Shown here: piece by piece, positions 21,507-39,549 of the stretch
How the letters are laid out: every line of letters starts with the position of its first letter
Numbering within the stretch: position 1 is the first letter of the stretch
Assembly: GCA_017459805.1 (NCBI GenBank)
Contig: JAFUCE010000014.1
Location: forward strand, 1-60,949
Origin: Eggerthellaceae bacterium
GTDB taxonomy: Bacteria; Actinomycetota; Coriobacteriia; Coriobacteriales; Eggerthellaceae
Reading direction: 5' to 3'
DNA: 60,949 nt
The notes under the pieces: generated by a model
The model's input: the letters and a program-made list of their open reading frames with translations, nothing else
Database searches by the model: none
What the model was told of the DNA's origin: nothing
Program-made: the position numbers and the translations under genes

Positions 21507-24200
21507 ATGCCCGTACCTTCCGAAAACAACTTTGCAGCAGTCCTTGAAAGCCGCGCGGCCGAACCGCAGGATTTCGTCTGCTTTCTTGACACCGCCACCG
21601 ACACGCGCGTGACCTACTTCGAACTGCGCCTGCGCAGCGTCTGGCTTGCGCGCGAAATGGAAGCCCAGGGCGTGGTGCGTGGCGGCGTGTGTGCCGTCGA
21701 CATGGGCAATTGCCCCGCGCTGCTCTACACCATGTGTGCGGCGGCATATGGTGGCTTTTCCCTCGTGCTGCTGAACAAGCGCCTGGTAGAAGCCGAAAAG
21801 AAGCGCCGCATCGCCGAGGTCAAACGAGCAACGCGGGCAGAATATCTGCCCATCCTTGACGAAGCGTCGGCCAATGCGCTCGTTGCAGAAGCAGACGCGG
21901 CTGGCCCCAACGCACGCGGCCTGCTTGCCCAGTGGGCGCGGCGTGGTGTTGCCTCCTTCGACGAAAATGCCAATGCTCTCTATATGCTTAAAGCCGCTTC
22001 GGTCGACCGGCAAAAGGTAGTCCCACTCACCTGGGCGCATCTTATGAGCGCGGCACGGGCTTGCAATACGGCACTTGCCACGCCCAACGAAGGCATCTGG
22101 CAGCTGGTCTTGCCCGCCTACCATGTGGACGGCATCCAGACCTTTTTCCGTTCGGTTCTTAACCACAATGCCATGCTGCTCTACCGCAGCTTCGATGCCG
22201 CGCGCGTGCTGTCCGACTCGCTTACCTTTAGCGCCACGCACATCGCGCTGGGCGACAAAATGCTTCAGGACCTGCTTGACCTCAACGAAAATGCGGCACC
22301 TACGCCGTCGGGGAAAAGCCCGCTTGAAACCTACGAATGTATTCTGGTTGACGCCACGCAACCCAATAAGCAAACGCTCATTCGCGCGCTTGGCCAGCAT
22401 GTGCCCGTGTTCATGGCCTATGGGCACACCGAAACCGCGTCCTATATTGCCGCAGGTCGGCTGGCGGATTCGGAACATATGACGGTCGAACTGTTCGACG
22501 GCTACACCACAACCATCACCAATCCCGACTCCCTCGGCCTTGGCCAAATTGCCGTTTCGGGCCCCAGCATCATAAGTGGCTACCTTAACGCGCGCGCCGC
22601 TTTCACAGCCGACAACTTCCTGCTTACGAACAACCGCGGGCGCAGTGAGGGCAGCACCCTTGAGCTGGCGGAAGCAAGTATGAGCACCTTTACCTCGGGC
22701 GGCGAAGACGTCTACCCCGCAGAAATCCGCGATAAAATTCTTGGCTTCGAAGGCGTAACCGACGCCTACGTCTTTGGTGCGTCGGATGCGGTGTGGGGGC
22801 GCAGGCCTATTGCCTTTGTGGAAGCCACCGAAGCGGTTTCGCGCCCGGGCTTTAACCGCTTCTATGCGGCCGACGACATGCGCAACCGTCTTTCCACGCG
22901 CCTGTCCGACTTTAATATGCCTGATCAGTTCATCTTTTTGGACGAATTCCCGCGCACGAGCGTTGGTAAGGTGGGTACAGGAACGCTTGAGCGCCTGTGG
23001 GAAGCCCGCCTTCAGGTGGCGCGTGTCGAAATATGGCAGCTGCACATTCCTCTGTCTAACCCCATTCGTACGGCCAACGCCCGTCTGCGCAACCGCGAAA
23101 GCACCGTGGTACGCATCACCGACTTTGCGGGGCGCACAGGTGTGGGGGAGTGCACATCCTTGGCAGCTGACGCCTTTGGGCCAGAAACCCTCGCCCAGGA
23201 CCTGCCGCTCCTTTCCGACGCGCTTGCGCCGCTTCTGGTGGGTCGTGTGCTTCTTCACCCCGGTGAAGCCACGGAATTGTTCGAAAACGCCCCAGGCGCC
23301 ACAGAAGCCCCATTTGCTCGTGCGGCGCTCGAAATGGCGCTGTGGGACCTCTATGGCAAGGTTCGCTCGCGTTCCCTCCGTCAACTCATTGGAGGCCGAG
23401 AAAATGTCTCAGAAACCGGCTCATTGCGCGAAATTCCCGCGGGTTGTGCGCCGGGTGGCGTGGTGGTAAGCCTGGGAACGGTGCCAGAAATGCTTTCAAG
23501 CGTGCAGGAAGCGGTGAATGCGGGCTATATGCGCGTCAAGCTGAAGGTCAAGCCTGGCACCGACATTGACATCGTTCGTGCGGTGCGCAACGAATTCCCC
23601 GACCTTATGATTATGCTTGACGCCAACCAAAGCTACCGCGACGACCAGCTGGATATCTTAAAACAGCTCGATGAACTGGGCGTAGAGTGTATTGAAGAAC
23701 CGCTCGATCCGGCCTTTGTGCCAACGGTAGGCCCGACTGATCTGTTCGACCGCCTGGCGCGCCTGCAGACACAGCTGCGCATGCGCGTGTGTTTGGATGA
23801 AAGCTGGCAAACGGACGAACAGTTGCAAGCTGCGCTCGAAAAACACCCCGAATTGCGCTGCGTATCGCTCAAGATTGGCAAGTTTGGTGGCATTGCTGCC
23901 GCGCTCGACTTTTACAATTGGGCGCGGGAACGTGGTATTGAAGCCTGGCCAGGCGGGATGTACGACACGGGTATTTCGAAGCGTGCTCATGCGGCGTTTG
24001 CCCTGCTCCCGGGCGTAAATTTGCCAGGCGACATAAGCGATAGTACCCGCTATTTCACGGTTGATATAAGCAATCCACCCTTCACCCTTGCTGACGGCGT
24101 CTTGCTGGTAAACGAAGCAGCGCATCCTTATGGCATTGGCTGCGAGCTCAACGAGACCATTCTTGCCAATGTCACCGAAAACTATTGGGTCTGCGAATAA
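21507..24200 (+). CDS. MenE-MenC fusion (o-succinylbenzoate-CoA ligase + o-succinylbenzoate synthase)
   Basis: A single 897-residue protein joining two menaquinone-pathway enzymes. Residues about 1-505 are an acyl-CoA ligase (ANL) domain: AYGHTETAS, SGGEDVYPAEI and the late PRTSVGKV lysine motif. Residues about 510-897 are an enolase-superfamily OSB synthase with KLK (Lys678/680), LDANQSY (Asp705), IEEP (Glu730/731), CLDES (Asp764), SLKIGKFGG (Lys789) and GGMYDTGISKRAH. In the ligase half the ATP-binding loop (normally SGTTGxPKG) reads KAASVDRQKV near residue 165, and the ribose-binding TGD is TNN, so that half may be weak or inactive. It follows the LCP gene by 6 bases. Alternative substrates are possible for either half. 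Confidence 0.87.
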   Translation: MPVPSENNFAAVLESRAAEPQDFVCFLDTATDTRVTYFELRLRSVWLAREMEAQGVVRGGVCAVDMGNCPALLYTMCAAAYGGFSLVLLNKRLVEAEKKRRIAEVKRATRAEYLPILDEASANALVAEADAAGPNARGLLAQWARRGVASFDENANALYMLKAASVDRQKVVPLTWAHLMSAARACNTALATPNEGIWQLVLPAYHVDGIQTFFRSVLNHNAMLLYRSFDAARVLSDSLTFSATHIALGDKMLQDLLDLNENAAPTPSGKSPLETYECILVDATQPNKQTLIRALGQHVPVFMAYGHTETASYIAAGRLADSEHMTVELFDGYTTTITNPDSLGLGQIAVSGPSIISGYLNARAAFTADNFLLTNNRGRSEGSTLELAEASMSTFTSGGEDVYPAEIRDKILGFEGVTDAYVFGASDAVWGRRPIAFVEATEAVSRPGFNRFYAADDMRNRLSTRLSDFNMPDQFIFLDEFPRTSVGKVGTGTLERLWEARLQVARVEIWQLHIPLSNPIRTANARLRNRESTVVRITDFAGRTGVGECTSLAADAFGPETLAQDLPLLSDALAPLLVGRVLLHPGEATELFENAPGATEAPFARAALEMALWDLYGKVRSRSLRQLIGGRENVSETGSLREIPAGCAPGGVVVSLGTVPEMLSSVQEAVNAGYMRVKLKVKPGTDIDIVRAVRNEFPDLMIMLDANQSYRDDQLDILKQLDELGVECIEEPLDPAFVPTVGPTDLFDRLARLQTQLRMRVCLDESWQTDEQLQAALEKHPELRCVSLKIGKFGGIAAALDFYNWARERGIEAWPGGMYDTGISKRAHAAFALLPGVNLPGDISDSTRYFTVDISNPPFTLADGVLLVNEAAHPYGIGCELNETILANVTENYWVCE

Positions 24201-24848: not shown

Positions 24849-24995
24849 TTGCACAACTAAATATACGTATCAGCACATCTGCTTCGTGACGCATTCCCCA
24901 CGTACGGGGATATGGCATAGGTATGGTTTTGCTCTGAAAAGGACGGTCGTAAGAAGCGACCAGGGCAAACGGATAGCAAAGGACGGTGCAGAGGG

Positions 24996-27900
24996 TTGAG
25001 CGTTAATCCGAAAACACTAGTCGAAAAGTTCATACGGGACAGCAAGGGCCGCAGCCGCTTGGCAGCGGTTACTGGCGTTCTAGCAGTCTTTACGGTTCTT
25101 ATTACCGTAGGCGTGCTCACGTTCCCGGCCATCAGTATTTCGGGCAGCGAAGAAGCGCTGCGCGAACAAGGCATCGACATCACAACTGGCCAGCAGCAAC
25201 AAGAAGCGGAGGTAGTCGCCCCACCGGCAGACGAAGCCCCCATGGTTGTCTACGACGAAGCATCGCAGGCCGCCGACGCCGAGTCGTCCGAAAATGTGGC
25301 CGAGGCAATCACCGAAGAAACAACTGTCGGTGATGTTGTTGTTTCTGACGAAGCTAATCTTGCAGCAGACGCTCCTGTTGAAGGTGAAGCTATTGAATCC
25401 ACAGACGCTCCTGTGGAAGGCGAAGAAACAACAGAAGAAGTTGTTGAAGAAGGAACCGAAGCTGAAGAAGAGCTGGTGTACTCGCAAGCTGCCGCTGATG
25501 CACTTGCCGCCGCCGACCTTTCTTCCAGCCGCCTTATTATTGGTACCTCTAACGCGGACGCTCTCGCGGAAGAAACCAATGTTGTTGCAAACTTTGACAA
25601 TATCTATCTACTTCAGTTTGCTAGTGCGGAGGAAGCTGCCAAGGGTTTCCTAAAATATTTCGACATTGCCGACTACGTAACGCCCGACGTGGCGGTTGAA
25701 ATTGCCGAAGGTGAAGACAACTCCGATCCTGAAGAAGAAGTCATCACCACCGACAACGTTTATACCGAAGAAGAAAATCCCTTCGCAGAACTCGAAACAG
25801 CCCTCGTTGAAGAAACCACTGTCGAAGCCGACGCTGCCGCTGCTTCCAACGAAGTGGCGCTTATCGCTCTTATCGACACCGGTGCGAGCATCGACACCAA
25901 TGTTGTTGAAGCTGTTTCCATGCTCGGTGAAGAAACCTCTGACGAGAATGGTCATGGTCAACGCATGGTTGACTTTATCGTCGAAGAAAACGAAGAAGCT
26001 CAGATTCTTTCTATCAAGGCACTTGCCTCTAATGGTAAAGGCGACGTGTCTGCGGTAATTGCTGCTATTAACTACGCTATGGAACGCGGTGCTAGCATCA
26101 TCAACCTTTCAATGAGTGCATATGCTTCCGAAGAAAATGCTGCTCTGGCCGAAGCCGTGAAGCGCGCCGAAGAAGCTGGCATCGTGGTAGTTGGCGCCGC
26201 TGGCAATAACGGCTTTAACGCTAAGTTCTACATTCCTGGCAACATCGCTGAAGCCACCATTGTGGGCGCTTCTGATGAGCAGGGTGTACGTATCAAGCAG
26301 TCCAACTTCGGTGAGACTGTCGACTACAACTTCTGGGCAGGCTCCACGTCTGAAGCTGCAGCCCGCATGTCCGGTTTCATCTCTGCCAACGGCGAAGAAG
26401 GCGTCGCAGCTGTCCTCAACCAGGGCCGCATCTTTACGACCGACTACGTAGCCTCTCCGGCTGAAGAGCCCGCTGTTGAAGAAGGGACAACCGACGAAGA
26501 GCCTGACGAAGGCGAAGAAACTCCCGATGAGGCCAATCAGGATACCGAAATTACCGCCCAAGAAGCAAATGATGTTGTAGCGGACAGAAGTACTCTATCC
26601 ACTATTTTGCCCGAAGAAGATGGCAAGGATTACGGGCCGCTTGATAACCAAAGCAACGCCAATGCTACACAGCTTAATTGGCAAAAAGGGAGAAAGATTT
26701 GGGAGAATGATAAGCGTTACGTAGCAACCTGGGATGCTTTAAATGAAGTTATTACCAACGAAAAAGCCGACGTAATTTATTTGGATACACGTGCATTCTT
26801 AAGTGCACAGGACGCGGAACAGGCAAAATCTATTGCTGCTTATTATACTATCCCAGTTGATAGAGACATTACTATTATAGCTGGCAACATCACTGAAATT
26901 TACCATGATGCTCAGCCAAAAACTGAGATGACCAGCTACTTTAAGGTAAAAGACGGGGCAACACTTACACTGGATGGCGTTACGCTTACTGGTAAACAGG
27001 CATATACAGCACATGCTAAAATAAGCAATAACGTGGGACGCGTTGCTCTTGAGGCAAACACCACTGGCCAGTGGGCTGGTTACTACGAAGTCAAACTGTA
27101 TGACAGTAATGGTAATGTTCATTGGTTAGACAAGCTAAGCAAAAACGATGCCAAGATTATCAATGGCCTGAAAAGCGTAATTGCTGTTGCTCCTGGCACG
27201 CTGAGTGATCCGCCTGTTGCTGGCGAACCTTTTGCTATCCGTGAAAAAGAACCACAGGCTAACGGGAATTACCGATTCCTTATTGTCGACAATAACATGC
27301 TTCTGCTTCGGGAAGTAAGTCCCGACAATGTTTTGAGTATTGCCGGCAGTACAACTACAACCACTGACCCTGAAACTGGGGAAAGCGGAACACTGTTTGT
27401 CCAGAACTACGACACGCGGTTCCTTTGGAACATAGCCGAAACTCCTGCTTCGTTCCTTTACAACACAAACAGTAGCTCGACCCAAGGTTTTGCCATTATC
27501 CATGATGGTTACTATCACAAGGCTGATTGGAAGAATACCCCGCCTCAGCTCAAGTCCTCGAAAAATGGGTACCGAGTTGAAGCCACTGACGTATCTTATG
27601 AAGTTTCTTCGACCACACATGGTTACTTCGTAGATATTGAAGAGGGCGGCACGCTTACACTCACAAATGGATCAAAGATCGAATATGCCAAAGGCGGCAA
27701 CTCAGCCATTAAGTCAGATGGTGGCAACATTAATATTTATGATGGCGTAGAGATTAGCAATAACAAGAGCTCTGACAGTGCTTACAAGACTGAGCATCAT
27801 TGGGCAGGTGGTAACTCCACGTATGCTAGTGACGCTCGAAAGAATGATGCTGCTAGTGCAGGTGCCATCAATATGGTTGGCGGCGAGCTGAATATTGTTT

Positions 27901-30900
27901 GCAGTGATCCAAGCAAGGGCATAAAGATTCACGATAATCGTGGAGGTGCGACCAATACGGCTGGTGCCATTCGCATTAGTGGTACTCAGGCGCAGGTATT
28001 GGGCAATGTTGCAATCTATGATAATCGCGCACGCAAGAACGATAAATTCAATGCAGCGGCCGACATGGCTGAGATGCAGACTTGGCTTGGTGCAGACGGG
28101 TCAGTGGACAGAACGAAGGTTCAAGCTGCAAGGCGGGACATGCATCTAAATGGTGTTGGTACTGGGTCTTATATTGTTAACCTTAGCATGTACCAGGGCA
28201 AAGACCCCGTTACTGACGCTAAAATGGAAATATTGGTCACCGCCTGGGAATCCGCTGGGGCGATTTTGGCCGAAGATGGCGCAACGCTGACTATCGGTTC
28301 CAAAACGGAAAAGGACAATACGCCGCAGATTTATGGAAATACGGGCGAAGCTGGCGCAATTCGTATTACAGGAAGCAACACTGTTGTTGACCAGTATTAC
28401 GCAACGATTGGCGGTAAGCCGGAAAATCCCAATTATGGCACCAACGGCGGCGCTGTTCATGTGTCCGAAGGTACGTACAATATGCATACGGGAGAAATGT
28501 CCTGGAACGGTGCATGGGGCAAGGGTGGCGCTGTAGCTGTCTCGCTTGATGGAACGTTTAATCTTGGGGATGCTGATGGGTATGGTAATGATCTTGATGC
28601 CCCCGAAATTGCTCATAATCTAGCAACTTTTAATGGCGGTGGCGTCTACATTGAGTCAAACAAGGTAAACCTGTATTACGGCGATATTAATGACAACCTT
28701 GCTGGCATGTATGGTGGCGGCGTCTATGTGACAGGCGATTCTCTCTCGACCACCTATAATTTGCGCTTCCCAGATCCTGTAGATGAAGATATTGCAAATG
28801 CATATGTTTACGAAAATGACGCATATAGAAAGATTAATAACAGAAGTGAACCGTACGGCGAATTTGGCGATGGTGGCGGCATGTGGTCCTGCCCGTGGGG
28901 GTCTTACCTCTACAAGGAGGATCGCCTAGCGATATTTGCCAATAGTGCAGAGAGAAACGGTGACGACTTTACTAAGCAGGGATCTTCCAATCCTGGTCAG
29001 GGTATGGGCGCCGCATTCGAACCCGTTCCTGGTCACGTTTGGAGATACGATCACGCAGGCACCGCTCGCCATGGTGAGGTCTTGTATCCCGAATATGTGT
29101 TCCCCACCAATGAATACATGAATCTTAAGAGCGACTTGACTAAGCAACAAGTAAATATCCCAACTGCCAAGCAGGCCGTGCTCATACATGGCAATAAGGC
29201 TTCTGATGGCGCTGGTATTGGTAGTAACGGCATCATTACATTCGAGGATCTGCCTGAGTACTATAAGGTCATTAGCGCCAAGCTCAAGCTGGATAAGAAA
29301 TGGAATGACACTAGCGCCAACCATGACGGCAGGAAAGTGAAACTCGAAGTCCGCATTCTTGATGCTGATGGCAATCCGGTAAAAGTGTTCGACAATAATG
29401 GAACACAAAAGGAAAGGGATCCTTACACAGTAACGCTTGATGGTAGTGATTCCGACGAAAAGTACGCCGACGAAACTGCTACAGGCAAGATTACGTGGAA
29501 CAAGTGGCACGCAACTATTGACTTGCCTACCTACACGTTCTCTATCAAGAATCTCTTGAGGCAGGCTTTGGTAGATAGTGGCTTATCTACGGACGAAGCT
29601 AATGCTGTGCTTGAAAACACAAGCGATCTTTCACAGATAGATCAGCTGCAAGAGCAGCTTGGTAGCACTAACGCGGATCCAAAGAGATATGCCTATGTCA
29701 TTGACTATCTTAAGGCAAAGGTCGAAGGTGGTACGGCGCCAAATGCTAGTGTGAGCGATGAATTTGCCGCCACGGTTGCCTTTGATGGTTGGCAGATTGA
29801 GATTAAAGAAACAATCCTGAAGAGCGACGGTACTATAGAGGAAAACCCGCCGTATAGCCTTGACTTCGGTAAGCTGTACTTCTCGAAGAAGAACCCAGAT
29901 GCTCTCTATAGCTCAAAATACGTAGACACAGGCCGCAACTTCATCGTATACACCGATGAATACGAGCTTTCGACTGAGCTTACAAACTGGAATACTGAGA
30001 TTAAGGTCAATAAGGTCGATCAGGATGACAATCCTCTGCCTGGCGCTACGTTCGCCATATACAAAGTTGACGATGACAACACGGAGACTTTGGTCGAGCA
30101 GAAGACAATGGGAGAAGAGGAAACCAGCCTTGTCTTTAAGGGGCTGTCAGCTGGTACCTACAAGGTGCGCGAAATTAGTGCGCCCGACGGTTACAACAAA
30201 CACGTTGGCGACTACATCATCACTATAGACAAGAATGGTGCTACGGGCAGGGCAGAATATGTCGCCGTAGATTCAACAACGGGCCAATTGGCTGTTGGCG
30301 GTAATCTGCTTTATGTCGACAAACTACCTGCAAATGAAGCAGCGCTGAATGCTCTTTCGGATAAATATGCGGTAAATAATCTTACTACTACGACCTTTGG
30401 TAGCCACTATCCGCTTATTGTTGGTCTCTACGAAAACGGCACGACGCAAACAGGTCTTGCAACATCGACTGACTATGTGGTAAGCGCTACCGATACCACG
30501 AACTACCCTGGTATTATCCACTTCCTGAAGGATAGGAAGCATGTCGGATCGCCCGACCACAATCATGCATCGATTATCTATGGGTATGCGGATAGTGCAT
30601 TTACTCTAGCGAATCTTAAGAATCAAGGTCCCGATACAATAAATCAGTTTACTTGGAATAAAGTAACTACCGATAATGGTTTCGAGTTGTTTGCTTCGAA
30701 GACAGGTAAATACCTCATTATTGACAATGAAGGCAACCCTGTATTGACACAAAATCTTGCTACTGCTGCTGCAGCTGCAAAGGCTACTTCTGATGCTGCA
30801 TTCAGCACCGACGCCGAAGGCATGCTCAATATTAAGGTTGGCAATACCAAGGAAGAAGGCTGGGCCAGCGTTGACAAGGTCGATGAAAGCGGCAATTCAC

Positions 30901-33545
30901 TCTCAGGCGCCGAATTACACATTATCGATGCCGATACAAGGGAAGTTATCGAGGTTGAAATAAATGGTCAAAAGGTAACTTCTTGGGAATCTACTGGACA
31001 ACCTATTGCCGTTAAACTCCCCGCTGGTAACTACAAGCTGGTTGAAGTAACGCCGCCTAGTGGCTATACCCTTGCGGCACCTTGTGAGTTTACGGTTACC
31101 AAACAGAATAACTCTACTTCAAATGCTGTGGTTGTCCGAATGGAAGACAAGCTGCAACCTGCTGGCGAAATCTCTGTTCTGAAGGTTGATGAGAATAAGG
31201 TGCCGCTTGCTGGTGCAAAACTGGCTATCGTTAAGAAATCTGATCCGAACAATTATGTTAAGCAGTGGACATCTTCTGCGAGCCCAATGGTATTTAGTAC
31301 GGATGACTTCGAAGAAGGTGTGGAATATCAAGTTATCGAAATAGAGCCGCCATTTGGTTATGAGCGGAACGAAAATGTAGCCTATCCTACGTTTACGGTG
31401 AGGAAAAACCATTCTTCCCAGGCCGCCAATGGGTCATTGTCGCACCCTGGTGTGTCGGTAACGCACTCGACTGTAAAGGGTTCTTATATCCAGCTGAGCA
31501 AGAGCGGAAAGACCAACATAGGTTATTGCGTAAGCATGCACAACCACTATCTAACTACTACTTCTTCAACAGACGCAGTGTTATTAGACGATGCAACATC
31601 TGAATTCTTTAACTCCAACACTACCGTCTCGAATAAGCCCGGCGGAAGGGTAAACGTTAACGAAAACATGTTGAAAGCCATTAAGCATGCTCTTTATATT
31701 GGCTATCCTAACGACAGTGCTAATTTGCTGGGAAAGAATCTAATCTCCGAAAAGGATTTCTATAAGGTTACCCAAGCAGTAATCTGGCACTATACCACTA
31801 ATGGTGGGTTCGATAGCCTTAGCGCATCTTACGATAATACCTGGAATACAAACTGGTCTGGTTGGTACCAGGGCATTTTTGAAGTTCGTAGCACCAACGC
31901 TAACTCATGGTATCAGCGCATTATTCGATATATCGATGCCTTGGTTGCTGGTAATACCAACGCGACACTCGATGGTGTAAATGCCTCAGGTTTTGGTGCG
32001 CCAGATAGCTTTAAGGTAAATCTGTTTAAGTTTGGGTCAGATCAGCCCGTTGTTGAAACCTATCCTACCGAGCAGGTTATTCCGCCGCTTCAGCTTGAAA
32101 ACAAACTGCGCAAGGGCAAGATAACTATTACGAAGCAGTGGGCAAACGAAGACGGCTCTAGTGTTTCTATACCGGTTGATAGTGTCGATGTTCAACTTAC
32201 TCGTTCTGTTGACGGCGTGCCGGACGATAATTTCTCGCAGGTAATCACTATTACTAAGGCTAACAATTGGGTGGCAACGCAAGACGGTCTTGACCTCGTT
32301 GACCCGAAGACAACGAAGCCGTATCAGTACAGTATCTCTGAGAATACAAATGTTGCTGGTTTTAGCGCAACTGTAACTGGGCCTACGACTGTTGAGACAA
32401 GTAAGGTTACGTACAATGTGGCCACTACTTCTTCTTCTGCAACATGGAATGCAACTACATACTTGTCCAATAACGATACCTTTGTATTCACGCGCTCTGG
32501 GGACAGTAAAGTACTTACTGTGGACGGAAACAGCGTTAAGTGGGTAAATCTTTCTGGCTCATCTGCAGCAAACGCACCTGCAGAAGCGCAGTGGAAGGCA
32601 ATTCTGGCTAATAGTAACAACTCCAGCTATTATCTCCAGAATGTCAAAACTGGAAAATATCTTAAGCTCGGAAACCGCGTAGGCAACAATGGGCAAAGCT
32701 ACTGGTCGTATTACTACGACTGCACAGCAACGACCTCTAATGCCGAGCGTTTCAGGCTTGTTAACTACAGTAGTTCTTATTACAGTGATTCTTATGCATT
32801 GCAGGGTGTGACAGCAACTAGTAATAGCAATGGCTATGGCATCGAGATTTCTACTGTTGATGGTCAGCTTAGCTACTACAACACTGCATACGTAAAGCCT
32901 TACAAGAAGAATGTAACGAGCGATACTTCAACAAACCAGCAAGACTTATACACTGAATTTGAGGCTACGGTTTTCAACGCGGGTATTAAGCATGACTTTG
33001 AGTTGCTCAAGATTGATTCAAGCAAGTTAAACAGTTTGCCCAACAGCATAGACAGTCTCGACAGCATTAAAGACATCGACGGTCTTGATGGAGCAGTCTT
33101 CACCTTGAAGAATAACAACGAGGGCGACAACAAAGATGCCTACTTGACGAAGGATAACACGTGGAAGAATACAACTAATAAAGACGCTGAAGTGCGCTTT
33201 ACAACGGAAGATGGAAAGGTTTCCTTTGGCGGACTGCTAGCCGGCTCGTACATTCTTGAAGAGGTTCAGGTACCCGAGCATTATGTACAGGCAGATGGGC
33301 TTCTATGGAATGTTACGGTCAAGAATGATGGAACAATTGAAGTTGAGACACATGCCAATGCTGTCAAAGACAAGTTTGTGGTGTTCGGAAATGCTGCAGC
33401 AATCGTTATAGGTAACGATATCCAGACATATGTCCTGCCTGCAACGGGCGGCATTGGAACCACGGTATTTGTTATTGGTGGCGCACTTCTCATGCTGCTT
33501 GCGGCTGCGTTGTTTGTCCGTCGTGGTGCGAAAAAGGAAGCGTAG
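24996..33545 (+). CDS. Giant sortase-anchored adhesin: subtilase + beta-helix + SpaA repeats + thioester domain
   Basis: A 2849-residue cell-wall protein. A TTG start leads into a signal/anchor helix (about 22-48), then an acidic linker. A subtilisin-like S8 domain follows (about 285-480) with Asp294 (LIDTG), His320 (NGHG), Asn404 (AAGNNG) and Ser452 (TSEAAARMSG). Next come a beta-helix-like region (about 650-1260), SpaA/CnaB domains (about 1668-1750, 1955-2045, 2057-2150), a thioester domain with Cys2178 (GYCVS) and Gln2260 (TQAVIW), another CnaB (about 2373-2470), a possible beta-trefoil (about 2480-2640) and a last SpaA domain. The end is LPATG (2814-2818), a hydrophobic stretch and RRGAKKEA, the sorting signal. 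It heads the pilus locus and is probably the tip adhesin. Its first 1.6 kb resembles host codon use; the rest is more AT-rich. Confidence 0.9.
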   Translation: MSVNPKTLVEKFIRDSKGRSRLAAVTGVLAVFTVLITVGVLTFPAISISGSEEALREQGIDITTGQQQQEAEVVAPPADEAPMVVYDEASQAADAESSENVAEAITEETTVGDVVVSDEANLAADAPVEGEAIESTDAPVEGEETTEEVVEEGTEAEEELVYSQAAADALAAADLSSSRLIIGTSNADALAEETNVVANFDNIYLLQFASAEEAAKGFLKYFDIADYVTPDVAVEIAEGEDNSDPEEEVITTDNVYTEEENPFAELETALVEETTVEADAAAASNEVALIALIDTGASIDTNVVEAVSMLGEETSDENGHGQRMVDFIVEENEEAQILSIKALASNGKGDVSAVIAAINYAMERGASIINLSMSAYASEENAALAEAVKRAEEAGIVVVGAAGNNGFNAKFYIPGNIAEATIVGASDEQGVRIKQSNFGETVDYNFWAGSTSEAAARMSGFISANGEEGVAAVLNQGRIFTTDYVASPAEEPAVEEGTTDEEPDEGEETPDEANQDTEITAQEANDVVADRSTLSTILPEEDGKDYGPLDNQSNANATQLNWQKGRKIWENDKRYVATWDALNEVITNEKADVIYLDTRAFLSAQDAEQAKSIAAYYTIPVDRDITIIAGNITEIYHDAQPKTEMTSYFKVKDGATLTLDGVTLTGKQAYTAHAKISNNVGRVALEANTTGQWAGYYEVKLYDSNGNVHWLDKLSKNDAKIINGLKSVIAVAPGTLSDPPVAGEPFAIREKEPQANGNYRFLIVDNNMLLLREVSPDNVLSIAGSTTTTTDPETGESGTLFVQNYDTRFLWNIAETPASFLYNTNSSSTQGFAIIHDGYYHKADWKNTPPQLKSSKNGYRVEATDVSYEVSSTTHGYFVDIEEGGTLTLTNGSKIEYAKGGNSAIKSDGGNINIYDGVEISNNKSSDSAYKTEHHWAGGNSTYASDARKNDAASAGAINMVGGELNIVCSDPSKGIKIHDNRGGATNTAGAIRISGTQAQVLGNVAIYDNRARKNDKFNAAADMAEMQTWLGADGSVDRTKVQAARRDMHLNGVGTGSYIVNLSMYQGKDPVTDAKMEILVTAWESAGAILAEDGATLTIGSKTEKDNTPQIYGNTGEAGAIRITGSNTVVDQYYATIGGKPENPNYGTNGGAVHVSEGTYNMHTGEMSWNGAWGKGGAVAVSLDGTFNLGDADGYGNDLDAPEIAHNLATFNGGGVYIESNKVNLYYGDINDNLAGMYGGGVYVTGDSLSTTYNLRFPDPVDEDIANAYVYENDAYRKINNRSEPYGEFGDGGGMWSCPWGSYLYKEDRLAIFANSAERNGDDFTKQGSSNPGQGMGAAFEPVPGHVWRYDHAGTARHGEVLYPEYVFPTNEYMNLKSDLTKQQVNIPTAKQAVLIHGNKASDGAGIGSNGIITFEDLPEYYKVISAKLKLDKKWNDTSANHDGRKVKLEVRILDADGNPVKVFDNNGTQKERDPYTVTLDGSDSDEKYADETATGKITWNKWHATIDLPTYTFSIKNLLRQALVDSGLSTDEANAVLENTSDLSQIDQLQEQLGSTNADPKRYAYVIDYLKAKVEGGTAPNASVSDEFAATVAFDGWQIEIKETILKSDGTIEENPPYSLDFGKLYFSKKNPDALYSSKYVDTGRNFIVYTDEYELSTELTNWNTEIKVNKVDQDDNPLPGATFAIYKVDDDNTETLVEQKTMGEEETSLVFKGLSAGTYKVREISAPDGYNKHVGDYIITIDKNGATGRAEYVAVDSTTGQLAVGGNLLYVDKLPANEAALNALSDKYAVNNLTTTTFGSHYPLIVGLYENGTTQTGLATSTDYVVSATDTTNYPGIIHFLKDRKHVGSPDHNHASIIYGYADSAFTLANLKNQGPDTINQFTWNKVTTDNGFELFASKTGKYLIIDNEGNPVLTQNLATAAAAAKATSDAAFSTDAEGMLNIKVGNTKEEGWASVDKVDESGNSLSGAELHIIDADTREVIEVEINGQKVTSWESTGQPIAVKLPAGNYKLVEVTPPSGYTLAAPCEFTVTKQNNSTSNAVVVRMEDKLQPAGEISVLKVDENKVPLAGAKLAIVKKSDPNNYVKQWTSSASPMVFSTDDFEEGVEYQVIEIEPPFGYERNENVAYPTFTVRKNHSSQAANGSLSHPGVSVTHSTVKGSYIQLSKSGKTNIGYCVSMHNHYLTTTSSTDAVLLDDATSEFFNSNTTVSNKPGGRVNVNENMLKAIKHALYIGYPNDSANLLGKNLISEKDFYKVTQAVIWHYTTNGGFDSLSASYDNTWNTNWSGWYQGIFEVRSTNANSWYQRIIRYIDALVAGNTNATLDGVNASGFGAPDSFKVNLFKFGSDQPVVETYPTEQVIPPLQLENKLRKGKITITKQWANEDGSSVSIPVDSVDVQLTRSVDGVPDDNFSQVITITKANNWVATQDGLDLVDPKTTKPYQYSISENTNVAGFSATVTGPTTVETSKVTYNVATTSSSATWNATTYLSNNDTFVFTRSGDSKVLTVDGNSVKWVNLSGSSAANAPAEAQWKAILANSNNSSYYLQNVKTGKYLKLGNRVGNNGQSYWSYYYDCTATTSNAERFRLVNYSSSYYSDSYALQGVTATSNSNGYGIEISTVDGQLSYYNTAYVKPYKKNVTSDTSTNQQDLYTEFEATVFNAGIKHDFELLKIDSSKLNSLPNSIDSLDSIKDIDGLDGAVFTLKNNNEGDNKDAYLTKDNTWKNTTNKDAEVRFTTEDGKVSFGGLLAGSYILEEVQVPEHYVQADGLLWNVTVKNDGTIEVETHANAVKDKFVVFGNAAAIVIGNDIQTYVLPATGGIGTTVFVIGGALLMLLAAALFVRRGAKKEA

Positions 33546-33850: not shown

Positions 33851-34471
33851 GTGCTAGCAAGCAAGCCGGCTTATGCTGGTGCAGGCGCTGCTGGCAGCAT
33901 CGCTGTAGGCTCGCCTTCTGCCAATGCTTTGCGCGACGAACTTTCCCGCGTAACCACGCTAGACAATCGCCGCCGCGCCATCATGAGCGCCATTGGTGTG
34001 CTGGCCGTTGTTTCTGCCATTGCTATCATCGCATCGACCTTCTTCATTTCCGTTTTGCAGGTGCGCGGTAATTCCATGGAACCCACCATGACAGACGGCG
34101 AATTGGTTATTGCTACTCACTCCAACAACTTCAAGCAAGGCGAAATTTCTGCCTTCTATTACAACAACAAAATCCTGCTGAAGCGCGTTGTTGCTTTCCC
34201 GGGCGACTGGGTAGACATTACGCGCGATGGCGTAGTTTTCGTTAATGGCGAGATGCTCCAGGAAGACTACCTGGATCAGCACGCACTTGGTAAGACGGAC
34301 ATCGAATTCCCTTACCAGGTCCCGGAAAACCGTTACTTCGTACTGGGCGACAACCGCGGTGTGTCAATCGATTCCCGCTCGAACGCCATCGGTACGGTTT
34401 CGGAAGAACAGTTAATTGGCAATGCGGTCTTCAGGGTATGGCCGCTATCGAGCTTCGGCCCGATCCACTAG
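33851..34471 (+). CDS. Type I signal peptidase of the pilus locus
   Basis: A 206-residue S26 signal peptidase with one N-terminal membrane helix (AIMSAIGVLAVVSAIAIIASTFFISV, about 43-68). The catalytic Ser75 is in RGNSMEPTM, Lys111 in ILLKRVVAFPGD, and the box GDNRGVSIDSR is present. Dedicated signal peptidases (SipA/LepB-like) are common in sortase-pilus loci and process or help assemble pilins. The GTG start has no clear ribosome site. The frame stays open upstream: an ATT at 33815 with GAAGGG 8 bases before it would give ISIFGKKNAKQN at the N-terminus, so the true start may be there. It lies between the adhesin and the backbone pilin. Confidence 0.9.
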   Translation: MLASKPAYAGAGAAGSIAVGSPSANALRDELSRVTTLDNRRRAIMSAIGVLAVVSAIAIIASTFFISVLQVRGNSMEPTMTDGELVIATHSNNFKQGEISAFYYNNKILLKRVVAFPGDWVDITRDGVVFVNGEMLQEDYLDQHALGKTDIEFPYQVPENRYFVLGDNRGVSIDSRSNAIGTVSEEQLIGNAVFRVWPLSSFGPIH

Positions 34472-34532: not shown

Positions 34533-34679
34533 TACCACCCCAGGTCAGGTTCCTGCGCCAAGCCTGATCAAATATAAAAACTACAGGGATGAAGAAAAGC
34601 GTGCAGGGGTTTTTCAACATCAAGTAAGTAAATTGGAAGATAGAAAAAAGAAAGAAAATTTGGAAGGAGAATGAGGAAA

Positions 34680-36299
34680 ATGACAAGTGTAAAGAAGGTC
34701 AAGGTTGCACTGCTTGCTCTGGTAGCAGCTCTTGTAATCGCGATCCCGACAAGCGCGTTTGCTAATGGTACTATTGAGATTACCTCTCAAACCACTGGCG
34801 ACGAATACTACGCATATCAGGTATTTAAGGGTGACTATGACGCTACAGCTGCTGTTCTGTCCAATGTTGAATGGGGCAATGGTGTTGACGGCGCCGCTAT
34901 CCTCGCAGACACGAACCTGCCCGCCTCGCTTAAGGGTGCAACTAGTGCCAAAGAACTTGCTGAGAAACTGAGCAAGCTCTCCGATGATGCAGATGATTTG
35001 AAAGCATTTGCCGATGTTGTTGCTGCGCATCTTACAGATACAAAGTCTGCTAAGTTTGAAGCTGACTCAACAGGTCTTGTATATAAGTCAGGATCTCTTG
35101 CGGATGGTTATTACCTCGTTGAGCAGGGTAAAGCTGGTAAGTACGGCGATCAGGACGGTGCCAAGACTCGTTTCATCGCTAAGCTTGTTGGTGGCGACGC
35201 CAAGGCTACTGCCAAAGCTTCTGTTCCAGAGGTAGAAAAGGGTGTTATCGAAGACTCTAAGGTGCCTACCGAAGAAGAAGCTGCAGCTGCGTTTGCAAAG
35301 GCACTGAAAAATTACCAGAAGGCTGCCGACTACGACATCGCCCAGGGTATCCCTTATTACATCAGCGGTACTCTGCCGAGCACTTACAATGATTACAAAG
35401 ACTACTACTACAAGTTTACTGACCACATGAGTGATGGTCTTGATTATGTTGCTGGTTCTGCCAAGATTTATATTTACAATGGCGAAGCTCAGGGCACCCA
35501 GATTCAAGAGGCGGACGATGTTGTTATTAATTGGACCAAGCCGAATCTGACCGTTACTATTGACGACCTTAAGCAGTATGTTCCTTCATACAATGCTAAT
35601 ATCAAGATTGTCGTTCTTTATCAAGCAAAGCTGAACGCTAATTGCGTTATCGGTGGTGCTGGTAACCCCAACGATGTTATGCTGACCTACTCAAACAATC
35701 CGAACTCTGAGAGTGGCGGCACTCCAGAAACAGGTGATACGCCTAAGAAGTATGCTGTTGTGTTTACCTATGGTCTGGACGACACTAAGGTTGACGGTGC
35801 TGACGAAGTTACTCCTCTTGAACTTGCCAAGTTTGTGCTTCGTTGCGACTCTGGTGAATTTGAGGGTAAGTATGCTCAGATTGAGGGCGGTAAGCTGACC
35901 GGTTGGGGTACTACGGGTACTCAGATGGTTTCTGATGCTGATGGTAAATTTGGCGTAAAGGGTCTCGATGCAGGCACCTATACCCTTATCGAGGAACAGC
36001 CTCCTGCTGGATATAACAAGCGCGCTGATTACACATTCACTATTTCGGCAACGCTTCCTGCAGACTCCACGGTTGTTGCTGACACTGGCAATGCTGTAAG
36101 TAACCTCAAGACCGAAAAGACCGCTGGCAATGCCCAGACTGGTTTGATCGAAGAAAAGATTACCAATGAAAAGGGTACGTCCCTGCCAAGCACTGGTGGT
36201 ATTGGTACGACCATCTTTACCATCGTTGGCATTGCTCTGATCGTTGCTGCTGCTGCAATCATGGTGGTTCGCCGCCGCAACGCTGCTGCGATTCAGTAG
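34680..36299 (+). CDS. Backbone pilin (isopeptide-forming fimbrial subunit, LPSTG)
   Basis: A 539-residue major pilin candidate. It has a signal peptide (VKVALLALVAALVIAIPTSAFA) and an N-terminal domain ending in KASVPEVEKGVIED, the region that carries the pilin lysine in related fimbrillins. Next is a D2-type isopeptide domain (DYDIAQGIPYYISGTLPSTY) and a C-terminal SpaA-like domain with the E-box TLIEEQPPAGYN. The sorting signal is LPSTG (about 502-506), a hydrophobic helix and RRRNAAAIQ. ATG at 34680 is preferred: AAGGAG is 10 bases before it but only 1 base before the ATG at 34671. The downstream class C sortase would polymerise it. Confidence 0.92.
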   Translation: MTSVKKVKVALLALVAALVIAIPTSAFANGTIEITSQTTGDEYYAYQVFKGDYDATAAVLSNVEWGNGVDGAAILADTNLPASLKGATSAKELAEKLSKLSDDADDLKAFADVVAAHLTDTKSAKFEADSTGLVYKSGSLADGYYLVEQGKAGKYGDQDGAKTRFIAKLVGGDAKATAKASVPEVEKGVIEDSKVPTEEEAAAAFAKALKNYQKAADYDIAQGIPYYISGTLPSTYNDYKDYYYKFTDHMSDGLDYVAGSAKIYIYNGEAQGTQIQEADDVVINWTKPNLTVTIDDLKQYVPSYNANIKIVVLYQAKLNANCVIGGAGNPNDVMLTYSNNPNSESGGTPETGDTPKKYAVVFTYGLDDTKVDGADEVTPLELAKFVLRCDSGEFEGKYAQIEGGKLTGWGTTGTQMVSDADGKFGVKGLDAGTYTLIEEQPPAGYNKRADYTFTISATLPADSTVVADTGNAVSNLKTEKTAGNAQTGLIEEKITNEKGTSLPSTGGIGTTIFTIVGIALIVAAAAIMVVRRRNAAAIQ

Positions 36300-36375
36300 T
36301 GCAGACTGTTAACCCAAACGGGCGTTGGAATCCTGTAGGCCAGCGCCCATAACGGGTGAAGGTTAAATGAAACTG

Positions 36376-36407
36376 CTCGGCCAATCGGGCAGTCCCGATT
36401 GGCCGAG
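36376..36407 (+). other. Perfect hairpin between pilin and sortase genes
   Basis: A 14-base-pair perfect stem (CTCGGCCAATCGGG and its complement) with a 4-base CAGT loop and no T-run. It could lower sortase expression relative to pilin or stabilise the pilin mRNA end. It overlaps the longest possible sortase frame, which argues for the later start. Confidence 0.75.
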
Positions 36408-36420
36408 TGAGGTTGGCACC

Positions 36421-37299
36421 TTGAAGAGAATTATAGGAAATATATTGACAGCCCTTATTTTTTTAACAGGGCTTGCAGTGCTTTTGTACCCTACAATAAG
36501 CGACTATTGGAATTCGCGTCTACAGGGTCGTGCAATATCGAATTATGAGCGTTCCTTATCCGAAATGTCCGATGAGGATTTATCGGCTATTTCGGATAAG
36601 GCTGTCGCCTATAATGAGGCACTTGCGTCAATGGGAAATATGAGTTGGCGTTTATCTTCAGAGGACTTGGCTGAATATAACTCTCTTCTCAATATTAATA
36701 ATGATGGTCTAATGGGTCATATCGAGATTGAAAAACTTGGTGTTGACCTGCCCTTATACCATACAGTTGACGAAACGGTTCTTCAAATAGGCGTTGGTCA
36801 TATTCCAGGTTCGTCGTTGCCTATTGGTGGCGAAAGTACCCATTCGGTGCTTTCAGGACACCGTGGGTTACCGACGAGCAAACTGTTCACGGAGCTGGAC
36901 AAAATGCAGGAAGGCGATTTGTTTTCCATTTATGTTTTGGACCAGCAGTTGGTGTACGAAGTGGATCAAATCCGCGTTGTGCTCCCCAACGAAGTGAGCG
37001 AATTGAAAATTGAAGAAGGGAAAGATTTGTGCACGCTTGTTACGTGCACGCCCTATGCCATTAACACCCATCGGTTGTTAGTGCGTGGGCACCGAATCGA
37101 CTACGACACAGGCATTTACGTTATGGCAGACGCCACGCAGATGGACCGCGTGTTAGTTTCTTCGGTAATCGCAACCCCTCTTCTTATGGCATTGTTAGCT
37201 TACGTCTTGGTCCGAACATCGCAGCGCAGGGCACGTCGAAAAATGGGTGAGATAACACCCGAAATGGTGAAGGAAGCAATTAGGGAAGGCAAAGTATGA
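36421..37299 (+). CDS. Class C (pilus) sortase
   Basis: A transpeptidase that polymerises pilins by joining LPxTG threonine to a pilin lysine. From TTG at 36421 it is 292 residues: membrane helix (LTALIFLTGLAVLLYPTI), a helical region, then the sortase barrel. Catalytic residues are His147 (SGHRG), Cys209 (TLVTCTPY) and Arg222 (LLVRGHR). A C-terminal membrane helix follows (LVSSVIATPLLMALLAYVLV), as in class C enzymes. No clear DPW/DPF lid motif was seen. An ATG at 36367 would add 18 residues encoded by a perfect hairpin; GAGGT lies 8 bases before the TTG. It overlaps the next gene by 4 bases. Confidence 0.9.
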   Translation: MKRIIGNILTALIFLTGLAVLLYPTISDYWNSRLQGRAISNYERSLSEMSDEDLSAISDKAVAYNEALASMGNMSWRLSSEDLAEYNSLLNINNDGLMGHIEIEKLGVDLPLYHTVDETVLQIGVGHIPGSSLPIGGESTHSVLSGHRGLPTSKLFTELDKMQEGDLFSIYVLDQQLVYEVDQIRVVLPNEVSELKIEEGKDLCTLVTCTPYAINTHRLLVRGHRIDYDTGIYVMADATQMDRVLVSSVIATPLLMALLAYVLVRTSQRRARRKMGEITPEMVKEAIREGKV

Positions 37300-38615
37300 C
37301 AGGTTTAGCAACAACATACACCAAGCGTGGCACATCTATCGTGATGGCGCTCTTGCTTGCGGCGTTTGCGCTGGTTGCTGCGTATGCCGTAGCCGTGCCA
37401 AGTGCGTGGGCTGCAACGGGCTCTATTAAGGTGCAGTACCAAGCGTCCGACACAAGTGCGGGCATTGCAAACATGCAGGTGAACGCCTATAAGGTGGCCG
37501 ATGTCGTTGGAGACGAATATGTGCTGACCGACGAAATGAAGGCGCAACAGCCTTCAGGTTGGACCAATGGAAAAGCATCGGTTAATTCCGACACGGCATG
37601 GGTTTCCGCGCAAGCCGAAACCTTGGAAAACATTATCCGTACCAGCTGGCATGAACCCGAAGGTTTTGCCATTACGGATACGGCAGGTGCTGCAACCATT
37701 TCCAACCTGGAAAGTGGCTTGTACCTCATCTTTGCCTTGGGCGATCCAAACGCTGACGTTGTCCATCGCTTCCTTCCTTCTTTGGTTAACGTAAGTGGCG
37801 AAGGTGAAGACTTGGGTGTTTTCGAGGTCGACCCCAAGGAACCGGTCGTATTAGACCTTACCACGGAAGTGCAAGTTGTTAAGCACTGGGTGGGCGACAC
37901 CAAGTCAAACGCACGCCCCGTGTCCATTAAGGTCCAGCTTGCATGCGACGGCAAACCCTACGGCGACGTGGTTGAACTTTCGGACGCAAACGCCTGGAAG
38001 TACGTCTGGCGCAACCTCGATGCAAACACTCCGCACATTTGGAGCGTCAAAGAAGTAGAAGTTCCTTCCAACTATACCTTCAGCATTACCGAAGACAAGG
38101 AAACGGGTATCTTCACCGTTACCAATACCCTTAAGAAGACCGAAATCATCATTTCGAAGCAGGAAGTGGGCGGCGGCCCTGAACTGCCGGGTGCTACCCT
38201 CATTGTTAAGGATGAAAACGGCAACGTTATTGAAGAGTGGATTTCTGGGACTGAACCCCACAAGATTACGCTTGAACCGGGCGTTTACACCCTGACTGAA
38301 ATCACCGCTCCCGAAGGCTTCGAAATTGCTGAAACGATCACCTTCCGCGTAAACGCAGACGGCACGACCGAAGTTCTGCAGGATGGCCAGTGGGTTGACT
38401 GCAACAACCATGTAACCATGTTTGATGCACGCACCCCTGAAGTTCCGCCCGAGAATCCGCCAACGAATACGCCTGGCACACCGACTACTACTACGGTAAC
38501 GGGCAAGCTCCCGCAGACGGGGCAGCTTTGGTGGCCCGTTCCCGCACTGCTGTGTGCTGGTCTGGTTTCTGTGGGTGCAGGACGCATTGTTGCCACCCGC
38601 AGCGCAAGGAAGTAA
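37296..38615 (+). CDS. Accessory pilin with CnaB domain and LPQTG
   Basis: A 439-residue wall protein. After a signal peptide (SIVMALLLAAFALVAAYAVAVPSAWA) comes an N-terminal fimbrillin-like domain (about 33-185). Two CnaB/SpaA-like modules follow (VVKHWVGDTKSNARPVSIKVQL and IISKQEVGGGPELPGATLIV, the latter with YTLTEITAPEGFE). A Pro/Thr-rich stalk leads to the sorting signal KLPQTG, hydrophobic stretch and RSARK. It likely serves as a minor or basal pilin. The ATG overlaps the sortase stop (ATGA), so they are translationally coupled. Confidence 0.9.
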   Translation: MTGLATTYTKRGTSIVMALLLAAFALVAAYAVAVPSAWAATGSIKVQYQASDTSAGIANMQVNAYKVADVVGDEYVLTDEMKAQQPSGWTNGKASVNSDTAWVSAQAETLENIIRTSWHEPEGFAITDTAGAATISNLESGLYLIFALGDPNADVVHRFLPSLVNVSGEGEDLGVFEVDPKEPVVLDLTTEVQVVKHWVGDTKSNARPVSIKVQLACDGKPYGDVVELSDANAWKYVWRNLDANTPHIWSVKEVEVPSNYTFSITEDKETGIFTVTNTLKKTEIIISKQEVGGGPELPGATLIVKDENGNVIEEWISGTEPHKITLEPGVYTLTEITAPEGFEIAETITFRVNADGTTEVLQDGQWVDCNNHVTMFDARTPEVPPENPPTNTPGTPTTTTVTGKLPQTGQLWWPVPALLCAGLVSVGAGRIVATRSARK

Positions 38616-38856: not shown

Positions 38857-39549
38857 GTGGCAAAAGCTGAAAAAACTGGCGGAAGCAAAGTGGGTCGCAC
38901 GATTGGCAACCTGCTTACTGCCTTTGGTATCGTTTGCATTCTGGCGGCCCTTACTTTAACGGGTTACAACTGGAACCAGTCGCGGGCGGCGGGTGAAGAA
39001 TCGGCCCATGCGCTCGACATCATGTCGGTGCAGCTTCCTGGTTATGAAAAAGAAGGTGTGACGGGCGACGTACTCGACACGGAAATGCCTGTTGTCCAAA
39101 TTGATGGCCGCTCCTATGTTGGCCGCATCGACATTCCGCGCTTGGACATTTCGCTTCCTGTTTTGGCTGAATGGTCCGAAGAAGGGGCCGACATTGCGCC
39201 GTGCCGCTACAAGGGTTCGGTGTATAACGACACGCTTATTATTGCCGGGCATAATTTCGCGAGCCATTTTGGAAACCTGTACCAGCTGGCCGACGGCGAC
39301 AACGTGACCTTCGTCGACGTGAATGGCGCGGCGTACCACTACATCGTTTTGACGGCCGAAACCATCGACGGCTATGACCTGCGTGGTATGGAAGAAGGCG
39401 AATGGGACCTGACCTTGTTCACCTGCAACTTTAGCGGTGTTGAACGAACGACCGTCCGTTGCGCGCGGGTGCATCAGTCGAGCGTTAACAGCAGCGGCGG
39501 TGGGGTTTCAAACGTTGCGTCTTCCGCGGCCACGTCGAGTGCGGCTTAA
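38857..39549 (+). CDS. Second sortase (not class C)
   Basis: A 230-residue sortase with a single N-terminal membrane helix (IGNLLTAFGIVCILAALTLTGY, about 16-38) and no C-terminal one, unlike the class C enzyme upstream. Candidate catalytic residues are His132 (IAGHNF), Cys190 (LTLFTCNFSG) and Arg197 or Arg201. It could attach the finished pilus or LPxTG proteins to the cell wall. It ends with a Ser/Ala-rich tail. The GTG start follows AAGGCGGG. A terminator and a separate promoter-like region (TGTTAAAAT near 38792) separate it from the pilin operon. Confidence 0.88.
   Translation: MAKAEKTGGSKVGRTIGNLLTAFGIVCILAALTLTGYNWNQSRAAGEESAHALDIMSVQLPGYEKEGVTGDVLDTEMPVVQIDGRSYVGRIDIPRLDISLPVLAEWSEEGADIAPCRYKGSVYNDTLIIAGHNFASHFGNLYQLADGDNVTFVDVNGAAYHYIVLTAETIDGYDLRGMEEGEWDLTLFTCNFSGVERTTVRCARVHQSSVNSSGGGVSNVASSAATSSAA

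Follow-up and report, generated by a model that had tools for sequence, protein, structure and literature searches.

A sortase-anchored pilus-locus adhesin of Eggerthellaceae with both a subtilisin-like protease domain and a thioester domain

Introduction

What does a subtilisin-like protease do on a pilus-locus adhesin that also carries a thioester domain (TED)? The surveys of TED proteins that were consulted describe adhesive stalks without enzymes; here, a protease domain lies on the same polypeptide. The window (the whole stretch of Eggerthellaceae DNA analyzed, 60,949 nucleotides) had received a sequence-only reading, which proposed a subtilisin (S8) triad near the N-terminus of the adhesin and a Cys–Gln thioester pair near its C-terminus.

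Results

Anatomy of the adhesin and its locus

The adhesin frame (2849 residues) is open throughout and begins at a TTG codon that is kept in two relatives, G001 and G004. Its elements follow the order hydrophobic segment, acidic stretch, putative prodomain, S8 domain, repetitive region, three SpaA domains, TED, Cna_B domain, ricin-lectin-like stretch, SpaA domain, and LPATG signal (Table 1). The acidic low-complexity stretch reaches to residue ~165 and contains 30% Asp + Glu and 1% Lys + Arg. Both the SpaA/CnaB repeats and the sortase anchoring anticipated for this protein were located, as four SpaA domains with one Cna_B domain and as a sorting signal matched by PF00746. In contrast, the anticipated beta-helix was not confirmed, as residues 540-1440 have no Pfam or PDB match and a helix is suggested by their repetitive sequence alone. 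Taken by itself, this domain anatomy is considered highly probable.

The adhesin gene heads a sortase-pilus locus. The adhesin is followed by signal peptidase, backbone, class C sortase, minor pilin, and sortase, an order that is identical in three species of one Eggerthellaceae genus, represented by the window and by G001 and G004 (assemblies RUG11413 and Red_deer_4_mag_2), and the architecture of the adhesin is likewise common to all three. The assembly names of these relatives suggest a rumen setting. Two HTH_38-domain proteins, possibly transposase-related, adjoin the locus at 39946-41319 (-) and 41708-43015 (+), and a fusion of an AMP-binding enzyme with an enolase-superfamily domain, possibly MenE-MenC, is found at 21507-24200.

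Table 1. Features of the adhesin and the pilus locus, in window coordinates
Feature	Position	Strand	Basis
Giant sortase-anchored pilus-locus adhesin	24996..33545	+	architecture shared with G001 and G004
N-terminal hydrophobic segment (signal peptide or signal anchor), residues ~20-46	25053..25133	+	sequence
Putative inhibitor-I9-like prodomain, residues ~174-238	25515..25709	+	inferred; predicted beta-alpha-beta-beta-alpha order
Compact subtilisin (S8) domain, residues ~288-484: D294, H320, N404, S452	25857..26447	+	profile matches, triad, predicted fold
Repetitive region, residues ~570-1480, possibly beta-helix	26703..29435	+	sequence appearance
SpaA domain 1, residues ~1668-1753	29997..30254	+	domain profile search
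SpaA domain 2, residues 1957-2041	30864..31118	+	domain profile search
SpaA domain 3, residues 2057-2140	31164..31415	+	domain profile search
Thioester domain (TED), residues ~2150-2360	31443..32075	+	PF08341, TQXA_dom, PDB profile search
C2178, in YCVS (2177-2180)	31527-31529	+	motif
Q2260 of TQAVIW motif	31773-31775	+	motif
Q2350, proposed bond-forming Gln	32043-32045	+	motif resemblance, structural alignment
Cna_B domain, residues 2376-2462	32121..32381	+	domain profile search
Ricin-B-lectin-like stretch, below cut-off	32586..32783	+	PF14200 E 0.0008, 20.5 bits vs cut-off 25.6
SpaA domain 4, residues 2695-2785	33078..33350	+	domain profile search
LPATG cell-wall sorting signal, LPATG at 2814	33435..33542	+	PF00746 E 3e-5
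Signal peptidase I, Ser (GNSMEPTM) and Lys (LLKRVV) motifs kept	33851..34471	+	domain match, motifs
Backbone pilin, isopeptide D2, LPSTG	34671..36299	+	domain match
Class C (pilin-polymerising) sortase	36367..37299	+	NF033745 E 1.4e-80
Minor pilin, Cna_B and SpaA, LPQTG	37296..38615	+	domain match
Second sortase	38857..39549	+	PF04203

A compact subtilisin domain

The identity of the S8 domain is strongly backed by sequence and by predicted structure. When the segment was scanned alone, PF00082 matched with an E value of 4.8e-13 (49.5 bits against a curated cut-off of 21.8), and comparison with subtilisin BPN' gave 1.5e-13; the full-length Pfam scan of the adhesin did not report S8. The best NCBIfam S8 matches are QhpE, mycosin, and PatA, all far under the family cut-offs. 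The Asp, His, and Ser of the triad occur in order together with the oxyanion Asn, at exactly the residues assigned to them by the sequence-only reading, and residues 161-487, modeled with AlphaFold (mean pLDDT 79), recover the subtilisin fold, with a Z score of ~25.8 over about 190 residues at 2.0 Å (VIA/Foldseek; matches cover model residues ~122-321). PCSK9 chains are among these fold matches, as are most subtilases. In subtilisin BPN', the Asp-His, His-Asn, and Asn-Ser spacings are 32, 91, and 66 residues. The corresponding spacings here (26, 84, and 48 residues) are shorter, and the domain is therefore described as a compact subtilase. The putative prodomain that precedes it gives no Pfam match to I9 in the adhesin; this region is conserved in the genus and recognizable in the proteins of G272, a genome described below.

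An internal thioester domain and its probable glutamine

The TED is well supported by sequence and modestly by structure. PF08341 matches the adhesin with an E value of 1.3e-9 (38.8 bits against a cut-off of 22), NCBIfam TQXA_dom scores over its cut-off, and a PDB profile search with the TED returned Cpa 4c0z (E 2.3e-16) and 2xi9 (E 2.6e-15). The [YFL]C-hydrophobic-hydrophilic motif is present as YCVS. The model of the domain is poor (pLDDT 54.8), and its top eleven matches are all TED entries, with Z scores of 6.4-8.1 versus 3.8 for the next. The domain had been placed near the C-terminus; it is present, but is internal, ~490 residues before the end, whereas TEDs are "almost always" N-terminal (PMC4450167).

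Cys2178 and Gln2260 are located where the sequence-only reading put them, but in pairing the two it misassigned the partner. In the TEDs studied, the Gln of the TQxxPhiW motif is not essential and the bond-forming Gln sits in a separate, weak PhiQzetaPhiPhi motif (PMC4450167, PMC6194298); published mutagenesis of the TQ motif rules out Gln2260 (PMC4450167). Gln2350 is the best candidate and is likely to be the partner of Cys2178. The segment around it, FKVNLFKFGSDQPVVET, is similar to FKLNMFSCNNGKYQNLIGT in L042 and to KYQSLIGT in Cpa, and the same site reads KQCLLGV in G001 and FQYLIGV in G004. In the DQPVV of the adhesin, the residue preceding the Gln is Asp, versus a hydrophobic residue in the weak motif. 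The VIA alignment, drawn from the poor model, ends at Gln2350, where model residue 219 faces SfbI residue 259 and CpTIE residue 265, each two residues short of the known bond-forming Gln261 and Gln267 (PMC4450167). The Cys-to-Gln distance of 172 residues (C2178-Q2350) is longer than the 152 of SfbI and the 129 of CpTIE, as counted from the residue numbers in PMC4450167. Because the TED model is weak, Gln2350 is treated as a candidate rather than a proven partner.

Rarity of the pairing

Each domain is already known, and what is new, in the genomes searched, is the pairing of S8 and TED on one adhesin. Of the 52 TED matches examined across 47 related genomes, those of G000 (the window's own genome), G001, and G004 alone share a frame with S8. 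This set comprises 47 PF08341 matches in 42 relatives plus five further genomes of the phylum, which were then scanned with PF00082; the S8 scan left out the g182 genomes (TED frames of ~490-570 aa) and some other genomes of the phylum. The search covers Actinomycetota genomes, with Bacillota, home of most studied TED adhesins, outside its scope. A scan of genome contigs returned the two relatives and a distant archaeal subtilase, a scan of plasmids returned ordinary S8 peptidases, and a scan of viral contigs returned no match. Among open papers, none was found that joins a thioester domain, a subtilisin, and a sortase. The proposed coexistence of both domains on one sortase-anchored protein of a pilus locus holds and recurs in three species, and the combination was not found outside the genus among the 47 TED-bearing Actinomycetota genomes. 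The window's own genome also encodes an ordinary TED protein (L041:3003-5030, G000:C26), with an N-terminal TED and T-Q ester-bond domains and without S8.

Conservation along the protein

Between the window and G001, identity is ~70-87% over residues 1-500, save for the acidic stretch, and ~25-35% further on. Among the three species, the signal/S8 region is 73-89% identical and the S8 domain alone 76-81%; the TEDs are 28-35% identical, with the Cys, the TQ motif, and the Gln of the third motif all kept. This contrast indicates a constant protease cassette and a variable adhesive part. For the S8 domain, dN and dS are 0.129 and 1.02 (window-G001), 0.180 and 1.80 (window-G004), and 0.113 and 0.72 (G001-G004), where dS values above 1 are rough; the resulting dN/dS of about 0.1-0.16 indicates purifying selection. 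The triad and oxyanion Asn are intact in all four genus members, among them an incomplete protein from G005 with the same N-terminal cassette. A protease under purifying selection beside a diverging adhesive part raises the question of whether the tip digests something or matures only itself.

The 5' leader of the adhesin gene, together with the first codons (24868-25031), is unusually conserved in the three species (~60 nt identical), and the leader has a predicted RNA fold with z -2.1; an Rfam search of it returned no known RNA, and it is possibly a regulatory leader. A 28-nt element from the leader (24862-24889, around CAGCACATCTGC) recurs once elsewhere in G000 (C156:10383-10410) and in G001 (C7:59151-59178), with a shorter match in G004.

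The subtilisin cassette on other giant proteins

Related S8 domains occur outside the genus in proteins of 986-6421 aa, and in an incomplete one of 914 aa, from two families of the order; several end in sortase-type C-termini. A 100/99 branch separates these and the genus domains from other S8 domains. The clade is partly preselected, since membership depended on the score against a profile to which some of the members had contributed. Of 13 further cassette domains aligned across the Ser site, 12 retain the triad and oxyanion Asn. No TED was found in the giant S8 proteins of G272, G293, G320, G414, G415, G040, G081, and G097, which have other stalk domains and, in several cases, a similar leader. 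G272 encodes four such giants (L104-L107, 3286-6421 aa) that share the cassette at their N-termini, and G097 encodes a 3194-aa sortase-type protein with two S8 domains (L037:1600-11181), the second apparently without a prodomain. In several of L108-L111 (G415, G293, G414, G320), an LPXTG-like motif with a hydrophobic and a basic stretch lies N-terminal to S8. On this sequence comparison, the S8 module is a portable cassette, carried by giant surface proteins that are unrelated in their other parts. Its occurrence without a TED argues for a function independent of the TED and weakens readings that need both domains as a pair.

Two cassettes depart from this pattern. In G076 (L039:3-2744), an S8-like domain aligns along its whole length and has His replaced by Gln, Asn by Asp, and Ser by Ala; it is followed by a sub-threshold TED_2 match (E 0.0016). 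By its sequence, this protein is probably a pseudo-protease, possibly beside a thioester domain, and the missing catalytic residues argue against a general need for catalysis. The G099 cassette is degenerate or truncated. The S8-topped giants appear to make up a family within Coriobacteriia, of which no earlier description turned up, and they are easily overlooked, since the full-length Pfam scan of the adhesin itself missed S8.

Discussion

Proposed mechanism and alternatives

We propose a Cpa-like pilus-tip adhesin whose self-maturing subtilisin is kept as a tip protease. The S8 cassette comprises the signal segment, the acidic stretch, the putative prodomain, and the compact S8 domain; because the adhesin is anchored C-terminally, this cassette should be its outermost part. 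After export, the prodomain would assist folding of S8, which would free itself from the leader by self-cleavage and remain active at the pilus tip. Further in, Cys2178 with Gln2350 would form a covalent bond to an amine on a target, and the sortases would join the adhesin to the pilus through LPATG. This full mechanism is put at about even odds, with the missing I9 match, the degenerate G076 and G099 cassettes, the apparent lack of a prodomain before the second S8 domain of G097, the poor TED model, the imperfect Gln motif, and the internal position of the TED all counting against it.

Two alternatives, each judged unlikely, differ on what the protease is for. The first follows PCSK9, a eukaryotic subtilase that cuts itself and then acts as a binding domain: S8 would cut itself once or never and persist at the tip as a folded domain for binding or capping, with adhesion as the sole job. 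The whole-length alignment of the G076 relative is consistent with such a role, as is the presence of PCSK9 among the fold matches, which it shares with most subtilases; the catalytic residues, retained throughout the genus and in nearly all other cassettes, and the purifying selection on S8 argue against it. In the second, the protease would be a processing device only, cutting the adhesin loose from a membrane anchor at its N-terminus or trimming other pilus proteins, and would not act on outside targets. A cassette much better conserved than the adhesive part, and placed on unrelated giants (four in G272), is what a shared maturation device would look like, but a degenerate copy exists, a signal peptidase with catalytic motifs is already encoded in the locus, and the cleavage site is only putative.

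Less probable than either is a cut-and-capture tip, in which the outermost subtilisin would process proteins at the contact site and the TED would attach the pilus to the target once it is cut; alternatively, the protease would activate the thioester in the manner of C3. Cooperation as the reason for the pairing, with S8 cutting or exposing the target for the TED or activating the thioester as in complement, is more doubtful still. The two domains are kept together in three species despite TED divergence, and complement thioesters, which require proteolytic activation, offer a precedent (PMC6194298). Against it, the cassette is found without a TED in other giants, ~1700 residues separate S8 from the TED, and, by mass data, bacterial TEDs produced in isolation as recombinant domains contain the thioester from the start (PMC4450167). 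An assembly chimera or pseudogene is extremely improbable: the window comes from a 176-contig draft genome, but the same fusion and locus recur in RUG11413 and Red_deer_4_mag_2, assemblies named independently of each other, the frame is open throughout, and dN/dS of S8 is well below 1.

Comparison with known systems

The cell-envelope subtilases C5a peptidase, SpyCEP, and lactocepin are sortase-anchored with S8 on the N-terminal side, as in the adhesin. To our knowledge, they have a larger S8 domain with Fn3 or other domains, carry no TED, and lie outside pilus loci. QhpE, mycosin, and PatA are compact subtilases like the adhesin S8, but belong to other contexts. The thioester-isopeptide-ester (TIE) proteins SfbI, CpTIE, and BaTIE share a TED, tandem Ig-like domains, and LPXTG with the adhesin, and no protease domain is mentioned in TIE architectures in PMC4450167 or PMC6194298.

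The likeness is to the Cpa/FCT locus of Streptococcus pyogenes, in which a TED tip adhesin with isopeptide-type domains lies beside a signal-peptidase-like gene, a backbone, a pilus sortase, and a minor pilin. The streptococcal operon has the order cpa-sipA-fctA-srtC-fctB, which the order of the Eggerthellaceae locus parallels. In contrast to Cpa, the Eggerthellaceae adhesin is far larger and has an N-terminal S8 cassette and a single internal TED. The roles of the group A Streptococcus pilus components have been described, and SrtC is a class B sortase (PMC7900414), whereas the sortase here is of class C. Finally, the signal peptidase of this locus keeps the Ser and Lys motifs, in contrast to SipA, which has lost its catalytic motifs.
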